From contig NZ_CAJXYK010000004.1 of assembly GCF_913063425.1 (NCBI RefSeq), positions 1 through 64,000 of the forward strand: DNA of 64,000 nt, in the 5' to 3' direction. The position numbers and the translations under genes were made by a program. Shown piece by piece: positions 26,734 through 33,537 of the stretch (its first letter is position 1; every line of letters begins with the position of its first letter). The DNA comes from an uncultured Thiohalocapsa sp. (GTDB lineage: Bacteria; Pseudomonadota; Gammaproteobacteria; Chromatiales; Chromatiaceae). Below the pieces are notes generated by a model. It saw nothing but the letters and a program-made list of their open reading frames with translations. It was not told where the DNA came from and ran no database searches.

Positions 26734-28209
26734 TCAGCTGCGCAGCAGCCAGAGCCGCTCCGGGGCCAGAAAGCGCGCCAGGAGGGCGCTGCCGTCTGCG
26801 GCGCTGAAGTGGGGCGAAGGCTCGGCTGCGGCCACGGCGGCGTAGATGGCTTCGAGCCGCGCTCCATAGCCCGGCACGGAGTACTGCGCGGCAATGGCGC
26901 TGCGATTGGCGTTGATGAGGTCCGGGTCTGCGGCGACTCTGAGCGACCGGGGGCGGAGCTCAGCGCGGGCGCCGGGGTCTGCGTGCAGGTGGCGGATCAC
27001 CGTCTCCTGGGCCGGCTCGTCCAGACGGCCGAAGTCGATGCGCCGATCCTGTACCGCATGCGCCCAGGCGCGCTCGGCGGCATCCCCGGCCGGGCGGCCG
27101 TAGGCGGCGGCGCGCTCGGTTGCCGCGGTGGCGTAAGCGGCGCGCAGGCGGGTCAGGTCGAGCCAGTCCAGGGGCACCCGGAGTTGCGGGTAGAGGGCGG
27201 GCAAACGCACGCCGGCCGCAGTGAAGTCGGCCGTGATCTCGGGCAGGTCGCGGCCCGCCAGGGGGCGGCCCAGCAGCCAGGGCTCCAGGAAGGCGAGCCC
27301 GAAGCCCTCGGCGATGCTGGTGGTCACCAGCGCATGACTCTCGGCGACGAGCGCGGGAAACGGCCGGTCACCGGCGCCGACCCCGAACGCCATCGGCAGT
27401 CCAAGCTCTGCGGCCAGTGCCACCCAGCGCTGATAGCGCGGCAGCTCCTGGGGGTTCTGTGGCGCCTGGGTGGCGGCGAAGTGGTCCTCCTCTCCCGCCA
27501 CCGCCGCCCACAGCAGGAGCTCGCCCAGGTTCTTGCGGCGGATGGCGCGGGTCGGATAGAGCCAGAGGCGTCGGCCGGCAGCGCGCCGTTGTTGTGCATG
27601 CGCGGGCTCAGCCGACCCGGAATCGGGCGTCGTGCCCACCGCGACGGCATTGGGAAGGGCGTGGAGCTGGGTCTGCGGGACGCCGGCGGCGGCGAGAAAG
27701 TCCTGGTCGCGGCGGTTCAGCGCCGCGTAGTGGATCTGTGGTGCCAGCGGGTAGAGCAGGGCTGACAGCCGTCCGATATCGCCGTCCGCGAGTACCCGAC
27801 GCAGGCGCCCGTAGAGCATGGGACGGCCATCCTCGGCGAAGTCGTGCGGCTGCAGCAGCAGCCGGTGCCCGCCCCGGGCGAGCCGCAGCACCGTGCCCGG
27901 CACCGCCGTGTTCTTGCCGAGGCTGTGGTTATGCACATGCCAGATGTCGGGCAGGTCGCCCAAGGCCTCCCGTGCGGCCTGCACCATGGCCGCCGCGAGC
28001 GCATCGGGCGACTGCGCGGCGCGGCGCTCCTCGTAGGCCAGGCCCGCCAGCACCTGGACGCGCGTGCCCGCCGGCAGCGCTGCCTGGGGCGCCTCGCCGC
28101 TCAGCACCGCCACCTTGGCGCCGCGTGCGAGCAGGGCGGTGCAGGCGTGCTGGATGACCCGGGTAACGCCGCCGGTCTGGAGATGGTAGTGGACGATGCA
28201 GACGCGCAT
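26734..28209 (-). CDS. glycosyltransferase, GT-B fold (GT4-like)
   Basis: The 491-residue protein begins MRVCIVHYHLQTGGVTRVIQH, a typical N-terminal Rossmann start of retaining GT-B enzymes, followed by WHVHNHSLGKN, a linker with PNAVAVG, and the donor-binding half with LYPTRAIRRKNLGELL, TTSIAEGFGLAFLEPWLLGRPL. The last 150 residues are Ala/Arg-rich and less typical. Donor and acceptor are unknown. It forms an apparent two-gene operon with the HAD hydrolase and diverges from the GT4 gene at 28648. Confidence 0.82.
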   Translation of the reverse strand: MRVCIVHYHLQTGGVTRVIQHACTALLARGAKVAVLSGEAPQAALPAGTRVQVLAGLAYEERRAAQSPDALAAAMVQAAREALGDLPDIWHVHNHSLGKNTAVPGTVLRLARGGHRLLLQPHDFAEDGRPMLYGRLRRVLADGDIGRLSALLYPLAPQIHYAALNRRDQDFLAAAGVPQTQLHALPNAVAVGTTPDSGSAEPAHAQQRRAAGRRLWLYPTRAIRRKNLGELLLWAAVAGEEDHFAATQAPQNPQELPRYQRWVALAAELGLPMAFGVGAGDRPFPALVAESHALVTTSIAEGFGLAFLEPWLLGRPLAGRDLPEITADFTAAGVRLPALYPQLRVPLDWLDLTRLRAAYATAATERAAAYGRPAGDAAERAWAHAVQDRRIDFGRLDEPAQETVIRHLHADPGARAELRPRSLRVAADPDLINANRSAIAAQYSVPGYGARLEAIYAAVAAAEPSPHFSAADGSALLARFLAPERLWLLRS

Positions 28210-28647
28210 GGCTGGCTCGCTGCCTTGGCTGAGGCTTGAGTGCTCCCTGCCTGCTGCGCGTGCGCCGCAGTTGGCGATTCAGAGTGCCACACCGCCTGCC
28301 GCCGGGACGGCGCACATGGGCCCCGCCATGGGCACGGGAGCTGCTTGTCTATCGGCGGACTGCGGCGGCCGACTGCGGCGGCCGACTGCGGCGGCCGACT
28401 GCGGCGCGGGTGCCGATGGCATGCCCGGCGGTCGCTGCGCTGTGCCAACGCATCTGCGCTCCGCCAGCGCCCGGCCGCCAGCATCCGGCCGGGGGCGTAT
28501 GACCCGAAGGCCATGGCGCCGCCGCCGCGGCATCGATCGGCGTTGCCGCAGGTGTATTCCCGCCGGCAGGCTGCGGCGGCATTATAGGCGCCGGGCGCCG
28601 GCCTTGGGCAGCGCCGGCGAGCGCGCCAGCCAGCATGTGTCATCCCC
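28210..28647. other. divergent intergenic region with tandem repeat
   Basis: These 438 bases separate two divergent glycosyltransferase genes and should contain both promoters. No reading frame here has a ribosome site or recognisable product. The only clear structure is the 13-bp tandem repeat at 28356-28406. I cannot point to a convincing promoter in either direction. Confidence 0.6.
28356..28406. repeat. 13-bp tandem repeat, about four copies
   Basis: The unit GGCCGACTGCGGC is repeated three times exactly with a partial, slightly changed copy at the left end. Each unit contains the palindromic core GGCC. It lies in the promoter region shared by the divergent glycosyltransferase genes, so copy-number change could affect their expression (inference). 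Confidence 0.9.
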
Positions 28648-29916
28648 ATGAAGCAACCCGAGAACATCGGCTTCGTCTCCACCCGCTTCGCCGGCACCGA
28701 CGGCGTCTCGCTGGAGGCCGCCAAATGGGCCGAGGTCCTCTGGCTCAGCGGTCATGTGAGCTACTGGTACGCCGGCGTGCTGGACCGCGATCCGGCGGTG
28801 AGCCTGTGCGTGCCGGAGGCCTTCTTCGACCACGCCGAAAACGCCTGGATCAACAACCAGCTCTGGGGCCGCACGCGCCGCTCTGCGGATGCGAGCCGGC
28901 GCATCCGTGAGCTGGCGGAGTATCTCAAGTCCACCCTCTACGAGTTCCGCGCCCGCTTCGATCTCGACATCCTGATCATCGAGAATGCGCTGACCATCCC
29001 CATGCACGTGCCGCTCGGGGTGGCCGTCACCGAGTTTCTGCTGGAGACGGGTATGCCGGCCATCGCCCATCACCACGATTTCATGTGGGAGCGCCAGCGC
29101 TTTCAGATCTCGGCGGTGGACGACTACCTGGAGATGGCCTTCCCGCCGCGGGTGCCGCACCTTCAGCACGTGGTCATCAATCAGGCAGCGCGGGAGGAGA
29201 TCGCCTGGCGCAAGGGCCTGCCCAGCATGCTGGTGCCCAACGTCTTCGACTTCGAGAATCCGCCGGGGGAGCCCGACGCCTATGCTGCCGACGTCCGCCA
29301 CGCCCTGGGTCTGCTGGACGACGATCTGCTGATCCTTCAGCCCACGCGCGTTGTGCCGCGTAAGGGCATCGAGCATGCCATCCACCTCATCCGCCGCATG
29401 AAGCTGCCGCGCGCGCATCTGGTGGTGTCACACGACAGCGGTGACGAGGGCCTCGAGTACGGCCGCCAGCTCCAGCAGCTCGCCCGGGACGAGGGTGTTT
29501 CACTCAAATTCTTCGGCGAGCGCATGGCCGACCGCCGCCAGCTGAACCAGGAGGGCCAGAAGGTCTATGTGCTCAGTGATCTTTACCCGCACGCGGACTT
29601 CGTCACCTTCCCGAGCCTCTACGAGGGGTTCGGCAACGCATTGCTGGAGTCCGTCTACTTTCGCACGCCGCTGGTGGTGGGGCGCTACTCGGTCTACCAG
29701 CGCGATATCGAGCCCAAGGGCTTTCGGCTCCCCACCATCGACGGCGTGGTGGATCGGGCCGTGGTGGAGGAGTGCCGGCGCATCATCGAGGACACCGACT
29801 ACCGGCAAGCCCTCACCGAGCACAACTACCGCGTGGCGAGCCGCTTTTTCAGCTACCGGGTGCTGCGCGACAGCCTGTGCAGCATGATCAACAACGTCCG
29901 CAACCTGACGGAGTAG
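28648..29916 (+). CDS. glycosyltransferase family 4 protein
   Basis: The 422-residue GT-B protein begins IGFVSTRFAGTDGVSLEAAKW and has the acceptor-side AHHHDFMWERQRFQ, PNVFDFENPP, LQPTRVVPRKGIEHAI and the donor-side FPSLYEGFGNALLESVYFR with the EX7E-type glutamates. It lies 4 bases before a GH13_18 phosphorylase, a pairing that suggests the two act on the same glucoside. I infer that the product may be a small glycoside such as a glucosylglycerate-type compatible solute, but the sequence alone does not prove it. Confidence 0.85.
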   Translation: MKQPENIGFVSTRFAGTDGVSLEAAKWAEVLWLSGHVSYWYAGVLDRDPAVSLCVPEAFFDHAENAWINNQLWGRTRRSADASRRIRELAEYLKSTLYEFRARFDLDILIIENALTIPMHVPLGVAVTEFLLETGMPAIAHHHDFMWERQRFQISAVDDYLEMAFPPRVPHLQHVVINQAAREEIAWRKGLPSMLVPNVFDFENPPGEPDAYAADVRHALGLLDDDLLILQPTRVVPRKGIEHAIHLIRRMKLPRAHLVVSHDSGDEGLEYGRQLQQLARDEGVSLKFFGERMADRRQLNQEGQKVYVLSDLYPHADFVTFPSLYEGFGNALLESVYFRTPLVVGRYSVYQRDIEPKGFRLPTIDGVVDRAVVEECRRIIEDTDYRQALTEHNYRVASRFFSYRVLRDSLCSMINNVRNLTE

Positions 29917-29920
29917 GCCC

Positions 29921-31720
29921 ATGCGCGTGGTGGACCGTGCCGTCTTCGAGCGCATCCGCGGCCGCCTGGCGCGGCTCTACGGGGAGGCGCAGCTGCCGCG
30001 GCTGCTGCAGCGCCTGGAGCTCCTGGTGGGGCGCTACGGTGTCGGCAGCCATTGCCTGCAGCCGGACGCCCAGCGCGAGCGCTGCCGCGGCTGGGACCAG
30101 CGCGATGCGGTTCTCATCGCCTATGGCGACATGGTCCGCAGCGACGCCGACGCACCGCTGGCTGCACTGCGCAGCTTCCTGGACGAGCGTGTGGGCGATG
30201 CGGTCTCGGCGCTGCATCTGCTGCCCTTCTTCCCGTCCAGCTCCGACGACGGGTTTGCCGTCATCGACTACCGCACCGTGGACCCGGCGCTCGGCACCTG
30301 GGACGACATCGACGCCTTGAGCGAGGACTACCGCCTCGCCACCGACCTGGTCATCAACCATGTCTCGGGGCAGAGCCATTGGTTCCGCGCTTACTGCAAC
30401 GGCATGGCCCCGGAGCGCCATTACTTCATCGAGGTGGACCCGGGCACCGACCTGTCCGCTGTCACCCGCCCGCGCACCTCGCCGCTGCTGCGCGCCGTGC
30501 AGACCCCCTATGGCGAGCGCCACCTCTGGGCCACCTTCAGCCACGACCAGCTGGATGTGGATTTCTCGAATCCGGATGTCCTGTTCGAGTATCTGGACAT
30601 CCTGCTGCTCTACGTCCACCACGGCGCACAGATCATCCGGCTCGATGCCATCGCCTATCTCTGGAAGCGTATCGGCACGCCCTGCATCCACCTGCCGGAG
30701 ACGCACGAGCTGGTGAAGCTGCTGCGGGACCTGCTGGAGATGCTCGCCCCGGGGGTGCTGCTGCTGAGCGAAACCAATGTGCCGCACGCCGAGAACATCA
30801 GCTACTTCGGCGCCGGGGACGAAGCGCACATGGTCTACCAGTTCAGCCTGCCGCCGCTGCTGCTGCACGCGCTGCACACGGGCGACGCCGGCTGTCTCAG
30901 CGCCTGGGCGGCCAACCTGGCACCGCCGCCGCCGGGCTGCACCTTCTTCAACTTCACCGCCTCCCACGACGGCATCGGCGTGCGTCCGCTGGAGGGGCTG
31001 GTGCCGGAGGCGGAGCTCGCCGCCCTGGTGGCCGCCATGGAGCAGCGCGGCGGGCTGGTGAGCCGGCGCAGCAATCCGGACGGCTCGGCGACACCCTACG
31101 AGCTCAACATCACCTGGTTCGACGCCGTCGGCGTGCCCGGCGACCGCGATGCCTCCATCCGGCGCTTTCTCTGCTCCCAGACCATCGCCCTGAGCCTCAA
31201 GGGCATCCCGGGGATCTACTTCAACAGCCTCCTCGGTGCGGACAACGACCTCGCGGCCGTGGAGCAGACCGGCCGTGCGCGCAGCATCAACCGCCGCAAG
31301 TGGACCGCCGCGGAGCTGGACCGCATGCTGGGCGAGACCTCCGGTCATCAGGCGGCGCTGGTGCTGCCCGAGTACCTGCGCCGGCTGCATGTACGCGCCG
31401 CGCAGCCCGCCTTCCACCCGGACGCCGCCCAGCAGGTGCTGGAGCTGCCGAAGGGCCTGTTCGGTGTGCGCCGGGACGACCCGCACACGGGCCAGCGCCT
31501 GTGGATGCTCGCGAACCTCACCGGCCGCAAGGTCGGCTGCGCCCTGAGCCGGCTTGATCGGCACTGGCAGCGCGCGCACTGGCGCGAGCTCATCAGCGCC
31601 TGGGATGCGCCGGGCGCGGCACTCGCGACCCGGCTGGAGCTCGCCCCGCACCAGGTGGTCTGGCTCACGCAGACAGCTCCCGCTCCCGTCGCGGACTCGC
31701 CTCCTGAGCCCGGTGATTGA
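29921..31720 (+). CDS. GH13 subfamily 18 glycoside phosphorylase (sucrose/glucosylglycerate phosphorylase-like)
   Basis: The 599-residue cytoplasmic protein is a (beta/alpha)8 GH13 enzyme using phosphate to split an alpha-glucoside into glucose-1-phosphate and an acceptor. Catalytic residues are visible: nucleophile Asp242 (IIRLDAIAYLWK), acid/base Glu284 (LLSETNVPHAENI) and transition-state Asp350 (NFTASHDGIGV). The sequence around the acid/base (ETNVPHAENISYFG) and the YELNITWFDA block resemble YcjM-type glucosylglycerate phosphorylases more than classical sucrose phosphorylase, which has a different segment there. It is about 80-100 residues longer than Bifidobacterium sucrose phosphorylase. 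The glucose-1-P product would join the glycogen phosphorylase/phosphoketolase pool. Confidence 0.88.
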   Translation: MRVVDRAVFERIRGRLARLYGEAQLPRLLQRLELLVGRYGVGSHCLQPDAQRERCRGWDQRDAVLIAYGDMVRSDADAPLAALRSFLDERVGDAVSALHLLPFFPSSSDDGFAVIDYRTVDPALGTWDDIDALSEDYRLATDLVINHVSGQSHWFRAYCNGMAPERHYFIEVDPGTDLSAVTRPRTSPLLRAVQTPYGERHLWATFSHDQLDVDFSNPDVLFEYLDILLLYVHHGAQIIRLDAIAYLWKRIGTPCIHLPETHELVKLLRDLLEMLAPGVLLLSETNVPHAENISYFGAGDEAHMVYQFSLPPLLLHALHTGDAGCLSAWAANLAPPPPGCTFFNFTASHDGIGVRPLEGLVPEAELAALVAAMEQRGGLVSRRSNPDGSATPYELNITWFDAVGVPGDRDASIRRFLCSQTIALSLKGIPGIYFNSLLGADNDLAAVEQTGRARSINRRKWTAAELDRMLGETSGHQAALVLPEYLRRLHVRAAQPAFHPDAAQQVLELPKGLFGVRRDDPHTGQRLWMLANLTGRKVGCALSRLDRHWQRAHWRELISAWDAPGAALATRLELAPHQVVWLTQTAPAPVADSPPEPGD

Positions 31721-31762: not shown

Positions 31763-32350
31763 GTGTCCATCGTCGAACGCCTGCTCCGCCGCCTCGCCGA
31801 CCGCCTGCCCTGCCGCATCATCGACGGCGAGCAGGGCGAGCCCTATCTCGAGCGCTACTACCTCGCCGGCCTGCTGGGCTGGCATGCCTATCTGCACCGC
31901 TTCGTCGACTCGGACCCGGACCGCGGCCTGCACGACCATCCCTGGAGCCGCGCCCTGAGCCTGGTGCTGACGGGGGGCTATGACGAGCAGCGCTTCCAGC
32001 GCCCGCCGGCGGCTGCGGCTGCCGATTCCCCCACGGCCGATCCGCCCCCGGCGGAGCCGCCGATCAGCACCCGCCATATCCGGCCCGGCCGGATCAACCT
32101 GCTGCGCGGTACGGACTATCATCGCGTGGTGCTGCGCGGCGATGTGCCGGCCTGGACGCTCTTCCTGCATGGCCCGCGTGTGAAGGGCTGGGGCTTTCTG
32201 CGGGCAGGGCAGTATCGGGCCATGGCCCGGAGCGCCGCGGACTTTCGCCACCGCGACTGGTGGCGCACCGCGCCCACCGGTGACGCGGTGCGCCGGGCAC
32301 GGAGTGCGGGCGGAGCGGGGTCAGCGAGCGCGGCGGCGCAGCACGAGTGA
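31763..32350 (+). CDS. cupin-like hypothetical protein
   Basis: The 195-residue protein has a small beta-barrel pattern with likely metal ligands: the His pair in RGLHDHPWSRALSLVLTGGY and a second motif around GTDYHRVVL, followed by WTLFLHGPRVKGWGF. This fits a single-domain cupin, but I do not know a function. The segment between the two motifs contains an Ala/Pro-rich insertion and the C-terminus is low-complexity. The start is GTG at 31763, 42 bases after the phosphorylase, in the same direction, suggesting one transcript. Confidence 0.7.
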   Translation: MSIVERLLRRLADRLPCRIIDGEQGEPYLERYYLAGLLGWHAYLHRFVDSDPDRGLHDHPWSRALSLVLTGGYDEQRFQRPPAAAAADSPTADPPPAEPPISTRHIRPGRINLLRGTDYHRVVLRGDVPAWTLFLHGPRVKGWGFLRAGQYRAMARSAADFRHRDWWRTAPTGDAVRRARSAGGAGSASAAAQHE

Positions 32351-32378
32351 TCATCCTCACCACCATCGGAGCTGTCTC

Positions 32379-32678
32379 ATGTTGCCGGCCCCCGTTGCAT
32401 CCCTGCGGCCTGTCACGGTGCTCGCGTCCGTGGCGGGGCTGGCGCTCCTCGCCGGCTGCGGCGGCGGCGCCGACAATGGCCCCCAAGCGTCCGCCGACAG
32501 CCTGCACGTGAGCTGCCTCGCCAAGCCGGACCCCGGCCCCTGCCGGGCCGCCAAGCCGGCCTACTACTACGACTACAAGACCGACAGCTGCCAGCGGTTC
32601 ATCTGGGGCGGCTGCCAGGGCAATGTGCCCTTCGAGACCCTGGAGCAGTGCCTGCGCCTGTGCAAGGGCGGTGGCTGA
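32379..32678 (+). CDS. Kunitz/BPTI-domain lipoprotein
   Basis: The 99-residue protein has a lipoprotein signal with lipobox LLAGC (Cys27), a short linker, and one Kunitz domain at residues 46-95. The six domain cysteines are at 46, 55, 71, 79, 91 and 95: spacings 8, 15, 7, 11, 3, against 8, 15, 7, 12, 3 in bovine pancreatic trypsin inhibitor. The conserved F-x-W/Y-G-G-C is present (RFIWGGC), and the residue after the second cysteine, the P1 inhibitory position, is Arg56, which predicts inhibition of trypsin-like proteases. Kunitz domains are mostly animal and rare in bacteria. ATG 32379 is selected because it starts the signal peptide; it lies 28 bases after the cupin-like gene. Target protease unknown; outer-membrane anchoring is likely since the residue after Cys is Gly, not Asp. 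Confidence 0.85.
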   Translation: MLPAPVASLRPVTVLASVAGLALLAGCGGGADNGPQASADSLHVSCLAKPDPGPCRAAKPAYYYDYKTDSCQRFIWGGCQGNVPFETLEQCLRLCKGGG

Positions 32679-32760: not shown

Positions 32761-33537
32761 ATGGTCGCCAGGAATGCGCAGAGGCTCAGACGTCCACGTC
32801 CGCCGGCTGCTCGTGCCGCTCGGCTGTGCCTCTGCGCGCTGCTGCTGGCGGCCCCCGCAATCGATGCGCAGACCTGGCGCGGCGCGCTTCAGCGCGGCGG
32901 CGAGATCGTCGTGGATCCGGGTACCCATCGCGCCGTGCGTCAACAGGACGGCGCCACCCATCCGCTCTGGGACGGCGTGCACCAGCTGGAGGACGGCTCC
33001 ACGGTGACCGTGCGCGACGGCGTCGCCGTACCCACCGAGGACATGTACCGCACCTGGCGCGGAAGCGGGCCGCCGGCACCTGTCTATGCGGAGCGCTGGT
33101 GCACGCAGCTGGTGCGCAAGACCTGCGGCTTCGACGATGCCTGCGACACCGGCGCCGCCTGCCTTCAGGCCCGCAGCCTGCGTGCCGATGCCCAGCGCGA
33201 GCGCCGCGAGCTCGGCCTCACACGCGGCCTCGATGCGGGCGCTGATGCGCCCACGGCGAGCGCTGAGCGCTGCCGCCTGGCCCTCGCCGAGCCCGGCTTT
33301 CCCGCCTGCGAGAGCCTCGCCGCGGGCGCTGCCGGGCGCTGCCGGGCGCTGGTGCGCCGCGTCTGTGGCGAGGACGATGCCTGCGCCGACAGCCAGGCCT
33401 GCGATGCCGCCCGTCAACTGTTGGCGCTGGAGACGGAGGAGCGCCTAGCGGCGGCAGACCCGACGGCGCCCTCCGGCACCGGCCACCAGTGCATGGAGGC
33501 CATGCACAACGACTTCTTTACCCCCTGTACCCCCTGA
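32761..33537 (+). CDS. secreted Cys-rich protein with duplicated module, unknown function
   Basis: The 258-residue protein has an Arg-rich N-terminus and hydrophobic segment ending near AIDAQ, consistent with a signal peptide. After a beta-rich region (about 38-100) with a WDGVHQLEDGSTVTVRDG element, it carries two copies of a Cys module at about 112-155 and 195-235: C-x2-L-V-R-x2-C-G-x-D-D-A-C-x4-A-C-x2-A-R. A final Cys pair sits in the last 20 residues (GHQCMEAM, FTPCTP). No known family is recognised. A TAGACT element 8 bases before the ATG at 32761 raises the possibility of a very short leader. It lies 82 bases downstream of the Kunitz gene. Confidence 0.7.
   Translation: MVARNAQRLRRPRPPAARAARLCLCALLLAAPAIDAQTWRGALQRGGEIVVDPGTHRAVRQQDGATHPLWDGVHQLEDGSTVTVRDGVAVPTEDMYRTWRGSGPPAPVYAERWCTQLVRKTCGFDDACDTGAACLQARSLRADAQRERRELGLTRGLDAGADAPTASAERCRLALAEPGFPACESLAAGAAGRCRALVRRVCGEDDACADSQACDAARQLLALETEERLAAADPTAPSGTGHQCMEAMHNDFFTPCTP

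Follow-up and report, generated by a model that had tools for sequence, protein, structure and literature searches.

A conserved family of lipid-anchored Kunitz domains in purple sulfur bacteria and its predicted role against foreign proteases

Kunitz inhibitors are usually presented to students as proteins of animals. What is a gene for such a domain doing in a bacterium, is the encoded protein an inhibitor at all, and if so, whose proteases might it inhibit? These questions are raised by a short gene in a stretch of 64,000 nucleotides (the window) from an uncultured Thiohalocapsa sp. (Chromatiaceae), in which a preliminary description had recognised a lipobox followed by a putative Kunitz domain. 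Our best answer, to which we assign a probability of about 0.52, is that the protein is a single-domain Kunitz inhibitor, lipid-anchored in the outer membrane and predicted to act by the standard mechanism on foreign trypsin-like proteases, much as ecotin does.

The window protein and its predicted fold

Translation of the gene (Table 1) bore out what had been noticed by eye: the LAGC lipobox, six cysteines (residues 46, 55, 71, 79, 91 and 95) spaced 8-15-7-11-3, a core that reads F74-I-W-G-G-C79, and an arginine, Arg56, directly adjoining the second cysteine, Cys55. The canonical GPCRA site and the Gly-Gly pair of the reactive region are both present. The Kunitz identity was borne out as well, far beyond chance: PF00014 (Kunitz_BPTI), the only Pfam profile to reach E <= 0.001, matches with E 1.4e-15 and 57.6 bits against a curated cut-off of 21, and a search of the PDB brings up 116 distinct sequences at E <= 0.001. 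There is no second PF00014 match in the 5.9-Mb genome.

Table 1. Features of the Kunitz lipoprotein gene, in window coordinates.
Feature	Position	Strand	Remarks
Kunitz lipoprotein gene, 99 residues	32379..32678	+	Stop codon included; translation and Pfam
GGAG, likely ribosome-binding site	32368..32371	+	7 bases 5' of the ATG; sequence seen, role inferred
Signal peptide with lipobox	32379..32459	+	LAGC at residues 24-27, with lipidation predicted at Cys27; position +2 is Gly28
18-residue linker from Cys27 to the domain	32460..32513	+	Low pLDDT at residues 28-36
Kunitz domain, residues 46-95	32514..32663	+	Pfam, AlphaFold2, Foldseek, VIA-align
Reactive-site P1 residue Arg56 (Pro54 at P3, Ala57 at P1')	32544..32546	+	Translation and family alignment
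C4-C5 loop QGNVPFETLEQ, 11 residues	32616..32648	+	Animal domains have one residue more

The AlphaFold2 model, built with 37 sequences as input, predicts a BPTI-type fold. Its pLDDT averages 72.6 over the whole chain, reaches about 91-92 in each block of ten residues from 51 to 90 and is low in the signal peptide and linker, and BPTI-like elements are present in the domain. Foldseek relates the model to TFPI, BPTI and other solved Kunitz domains with a probability of 1.00. VIA-align gives Z >= 8 for 54 of 291 chains, with a best Z of 8.9 both for TFPI domain 2 (rmsd 1.3 over 57 residues) and for calcicludine. Such matches to a predicted model are evidence of fold and not of activity; several of them are animal toxins with the same fold.

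Where would the protein reside? Lipoproteins are sorted by the residue at position +2, and Asp there marks those not destined for the outer membrane. The window protein reads LAGC-G, a lipobox free of Asp at +2, and because of this glycine, sorting to the outer membrane is likely. Of the outer-membrane anchor claimed in the preliminary description, the lipid anchor itself is supported, and the outer membrane is its likely site by the general rule. A permissive pattern finds a lipobox-like match upstream of the Kunitz domain in 64 of the 65 proteins compared, none with Asp at +2. Exposure on the cell surface would be a further step, and a lipoprotein held in the inner leaflet would reach foreign proteases only after the membrane had been breached, which counts against our best reading.

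A bacterial family with a shorter loop

The window gene is one of many. PF00014 matched in 62 of the 210 genomes and 17 of the 61 genera of the window's order, once per genome; the carriers include complete and type-strain genomes and nine of the ten Thiohalocapsa genomes. Farther afield, in samples that are partial draws and remain, like all genomes sampled, within the window's own phylum, the class yielded 4 positive genomes out of 369 and the phylum 3 out of 398, each figure including the window's own genome. One outlier from these broad samples led to a second gammaproteobacterial family (that of G750), in which 38 of 46 genomes have the gene and all ten loci read (L141, L145-L153) combine a lipobox-like motif with Arg or Lys at P1; the family of another outlier has one carrier among three genomes. 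The earlier statement that bacterial examples are few thus holds for the class- and phylum-wide samples, but not for two gammaproteobacterial groups in which the gene is common. A scan with a single pattern yielded 39 named loci, of which 35 belong to Chromatiaceae genera or to 'Chromatiaceae bacterium', three to 'Gammaproteobacteria bacterium' and one to Competibacteraceae; because that pattern was derived from this very family, the scan favours it. Two non-Chromatiaceae Kunitz lipoproteins (L099, L100) are extended far beyond the domain at the C terminus, to total lengths of 233 and 244 residues. The conserved Kunitz family in these bacteria is real; its function is a prediction.

Most carriers in the order are phototrophs, with reaction-centre genes in 54 of 61 of them compared with 22 of 143 non-carriers; these counts ignore kinship and come from a 204-genome sample leaving out G060. 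Among the carriers without such genes are G216, G218 (Candidatus Thiosymbion oneisti) and G219 ('Chromatiaceae bacterium').

What distinguishes the bacterial domains is a single loop. The spacing 8-15-7-11-3 recurs in all 65 domains compared (the window's, 61 from further order members and three from class members), allowing for one in which Cys14 and Cys38 are both replaced, and again at 11 further loci, of which ten belong to the second family and the last to a different class within the phylum. Relative to BPTI, with 8-15-7-12-3, the cysteine order and four spacings are the same, whereas the C4-C5 segment has 11 residues rather than 12. The preliminary description had flagged such a shorter loop, and the comparison upholds it: 76 of 76 bacterial domains have 11 residues, as against none of nine animal domains, all of which have one more just before the conserved Phe. 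The extra animal residue falls where BPTI has Asn43-Asn44; in 72 of the 76 bacterial domains (61 of 65 and 11 of 11) the Asn43 loop of the animal domains gives way to a Pro-Phe pair ahead of the helix. Since the short segment is found in every bacterial domain compared, we regard it as a shared bacterial hallmark. The PROSITE pattern PS00280, which we take to be F-x(3)-G-C-x(6)-[FY]-x(5)-C, would miss the window protein, because by eye x(5) replaces x(6). We treat a C4-C5 length of 12 as typical of Kunitz domains, not as defining them. Loss of the Asn43 position could weaken the fold or the loop, a point against an inhibitor. In Chromatium okenii DSM 169 (L068/L124) Gly and Arg take the places of Cys14 and Cys38, a double loss that fits the BPTI disulfide pattern.

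The surroundings of the gene vary. No neighbour is constant across the 65 loci; an operon partner was rejected for this reason, and we therefore draw no function from context. Just upstream in the window lies a gene for a cupin-like protein (31763-32350; PHROG cysteine dioxygenase, E 9.6e-33; no Pfam or NCBIfam match), which occurs in 34 of 204 order genomes, some of them devoid of Kunitz, is missing from Kunitz genomes such as G004, and was found in none of five Kunitz-lacking genomes checked. Positions 26734-31720 hold two glycosyltransferases and a GH13 enzyme, possibly of glycosylglycerate solute metabolism; one glycosyltransferase resembles mannosylglucosylglycerate synthase and the GH13 enzyme sucrose phosphorylase, both under their NCBIfam cut-offs, and a GT-GH13 pair lies 5' of the Kunitz gene at 15 of 65 loci, including those of Halochromatium and Thiosymbion. 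A rubrerythrin-like gene, named by eye, precedes it at 18 of 65. Directly downstream (32761-33537) a secreted-looking protein of 258 residues with many cysteines and no Pfam match is encoded, with relatives in 10 of 65 neighbourhoods. The Kunitz gene had no matches in plasmids, phages or viral contigs, and a mobile origin was rejected on that ground.

Reactive site and candidate targets

Is the fold still used for inhibition? Arg56 had been read as a trypsin-type P1 residue, and the relatives lend it company: P1 is basic in 38 of 62 order members (Arg 34, Lys 4) and not basic in the other 24 (Ala 6, Ser 6, Gly 5, His 3, Asp 2, Pro 2). The remainder of the site changes with it. Pro at P3 accompanies a basic P1 in 28 of 38 cases but another P1 in 3 of 24, and Gly36-Gly37 in 32 of 38 versus 5 of 24, although these counts are not independent of descent. 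The full canonical set is present in 25 of 62; in Thiohalocapsa, P1 is Arg in eight of nine and Gly-Gly is found in nine of nine.

The domain as a whole evolves slowly, with dN/dS within five genera of 0.20, 0.21, 0.16, 0.10 and 0.06, and is therefore under purifying selection. Against this background the reactive loops outpace other non-Cys positions in five of six genera in a position-shuffle test (Thiocapsa P 0.011, Halochromatium 0.020, Thiodictyon <0.0002, Marichromatium 0.021, Chromatium 0.044). Compared with other surface positions, which were picked by the exposure of residues in BPTI, the excess stays below P 0.05 in three of six (Thiocapsa 0.044, Halochromatium 0.088, Thiodictyon 0.0006, Marichromatium 0.045, Chromatium 0.11); both tests use pairwise sums without a tree. 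Thiohalocapsa shows no loop excess in this test (P 0.64 against non-Cys and 0.86 against surface positions). The trypsin-type loop is thus conserved in Thiohalocapsa, and elsewhere appears retargeted or degenerate.

Such variation invites the idea that the fold has become a binding or structural module and has ceased to inhibit proteases, which we consider unlikely. It would account for the 24 of 62 members without a basic P1, for the Chromatium okenii member without Cys14 and Cys38, and for reactive loops that are more variable than the rest (mean entropy 2.16 versus 1.54 bits among order members) while the far end of the hairpin is near-invariant (Asp65 in 62 of 62, Tyr66 in 61 of 62), as is Phe85 (62 of 62). 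Those conserved residues may, however, be structural, because domain 3 of SmCI also reads YYYDY; moreover, P1, P3 and Gly36-37 vary together, and the canonical loop is kept in Thiohalocapsa.

If the window protein does inhibit, it might restrain an endogenous envelope protease, for example one of the HtrA/DegP-like S1C type or another serine protease. We rate this as rather improbable. An outer-membrane lipoprotein would face the periplasm, and PF00089 matches in the HtrA range are found in 203 of 204 order genomes, yet most genomes with such matches have no Kunitz gene. No protease was noticed among the profiled neighbours in the window or, by eye, in the 30 largest neighbour clusters. The window's own genome has five PF00089 matches, the best at 2.3e-20 and in the range typical of most order genomes, and none that qualifies as a strong chymotrypsin-type (S1A) trypsin, defined by E < 1e-28, a threshold chosen after the score gap had been seen. 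Although ten phototroph genomes combine Kunitz with strong S1A, these are ten of 54 phototroph carriers, as opposed to 14 of 22 phototroph non-carriers (Fisher 2.7e-4, uncorrected for kinship; six of the 14 belong to one genus). This contrast leans against an S1A target of the cell's own. The sole Thiohalocapsa genome without Kunitz (G006) has a strong S1A match, and in two carriers both genes share a contig, about 18 kb apart in G150 and about 49 kb in G097. Four strong-S1A proteins were profiled and their Trypsin domains confirmed; two of the four are large and have a further trypsin-like domain. L155 and L156, from Chromatiaceae without Kunitz, are 853 and 868 residues long and have two trypsin-type domains and an InlB-like repeat.

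Ecotin offers a precedent for sparing the cell's own enzymes. It is periplasmic and not lipidated, and its sequence is unrelated to that of the Kunitz protein. According to PMC7773321, ecotins inhibit foreign serine proteases but not DegP/HtrA, which speaks against an endogenous HtrA target here, though ecotin has another fold; we propose the same role, an envelope inhibitor acting on foreign S1 proteases, for the Kunitz protein. Its profile (PF03974) has no match in the window's own genome, and the window protein is not an ecotin. Across the order ecotin occurs in nine of 204 genomes, none a Kunitz carrier, a non-overlap that may be due to chance given so few ecotin genomes. Taken together, the evidence leans moderately towards foreign over own proteases, with both inhibition and target being what we infer.

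How might an inhibitor of foreign proteases operate from the outer membrane? We envision that Lol sorts the lipoprotein there and that the rigid loop around Cys55-Arg56 would mimic a substrate, insert into the active site of a trypsin-like S1 protease and remain there, by the standard mechanism as in BPTI. The targets would be foreign, from predators, grazers or competitors, or from the host in the case of symbiotic relatives, and the protein would do the work of ecotin in lipidated form. The loop may have been retargeted or lost in several groups, among them those of Halochromatium and Thiodictyon. Bacterial Kunitz domains with Arg at P1 are described in PMC11511053 as inhibiting factors Xa and XIa at nM Ki, and those with Leu at P1 as inhibiting elastase; the Acinetobacter protein concerned (F6W77) is described there as secreted, with five Kunitz domains and from a pathogen, whereas the window protein is a single-domain lipoprotein. 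Vampirococcus lugosii preys on Halochromatium according to PMC8080830; that its proteases are Kunitz targets is speculation, and Halochromatium itself has a non-basic P1. The probable role of the bacterial Kunitz lipoprotein would thus be to protect the envelope against proteases from outside the cell.

Origin and meaning of the bacterial Kunitz domains

Kunitz domains are chiefly animal. The window protein shares with the animal family (PF00014; MEROPS I2; BPTI, TFPI, SmCI) the six cysteines, the predicted fold, the GPC-R-A site and the F-x-[WY]-G-G-C core, but differs in its shorter C4-C5 segment with the Asn43 position lost, and in being a bacterial, single-domain, single-copy lipoprotein. 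A recent transfer from an animal host, as PMC11511053 suggests for its own Acinetobacter protein, or eukaryotic contamination of the assembly is very improbable, given carriage by 62 of 210 order genomes, conserved bacterial neighbours, a bacterial lipobox, the one-residue deletion present in all 76 bacterial and none of the nine animal domains and the want of plasmid, phage or viral-contig matches, even though a tree places rows of Chromatiaceae next to SmCI domain 3 on a branch that is not firm. That tree, of 74 domains over 47 columns, has 4 firm inner branches out of 71 and cannot decide between one and several bacterial origins.

The fold is known and the mechanism likely known; the structural hallmark, lipoprotein setting and distribution of bacterial Kunitz domains are, as far as we found, unpublished, as the open-access literature yielded none of them and nothing linking Kunitz with Chromatiaceae or with Thiosymbion, and a term search of the Chromatium okenii genome paper found no mention of Kunitz. 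It is tempting, if doubtful as one joint claim, to suppose that Bacteria have an old Kunitz branch of their own, marked by the Asn43 deletion, which in purple sulfur bacteria became a surface anti-protease with a reactive loop diversifying against predators such as Vampirococcus.

A lipid-anchored, chromosomal Kunitz protein that occurs family-wide, in free-living phototrophs as well as in symbionts of nematodes (Candidatus Thiosymbion), and that has one structural hallmark throughout, points to a separate history of the lineage in bacteria. The bacterial domains are a natural record of how the fold accommodates the missing Asn43 position, and whether the protein helps to defend its bearers against bacterial predators or grazers becomes testable.
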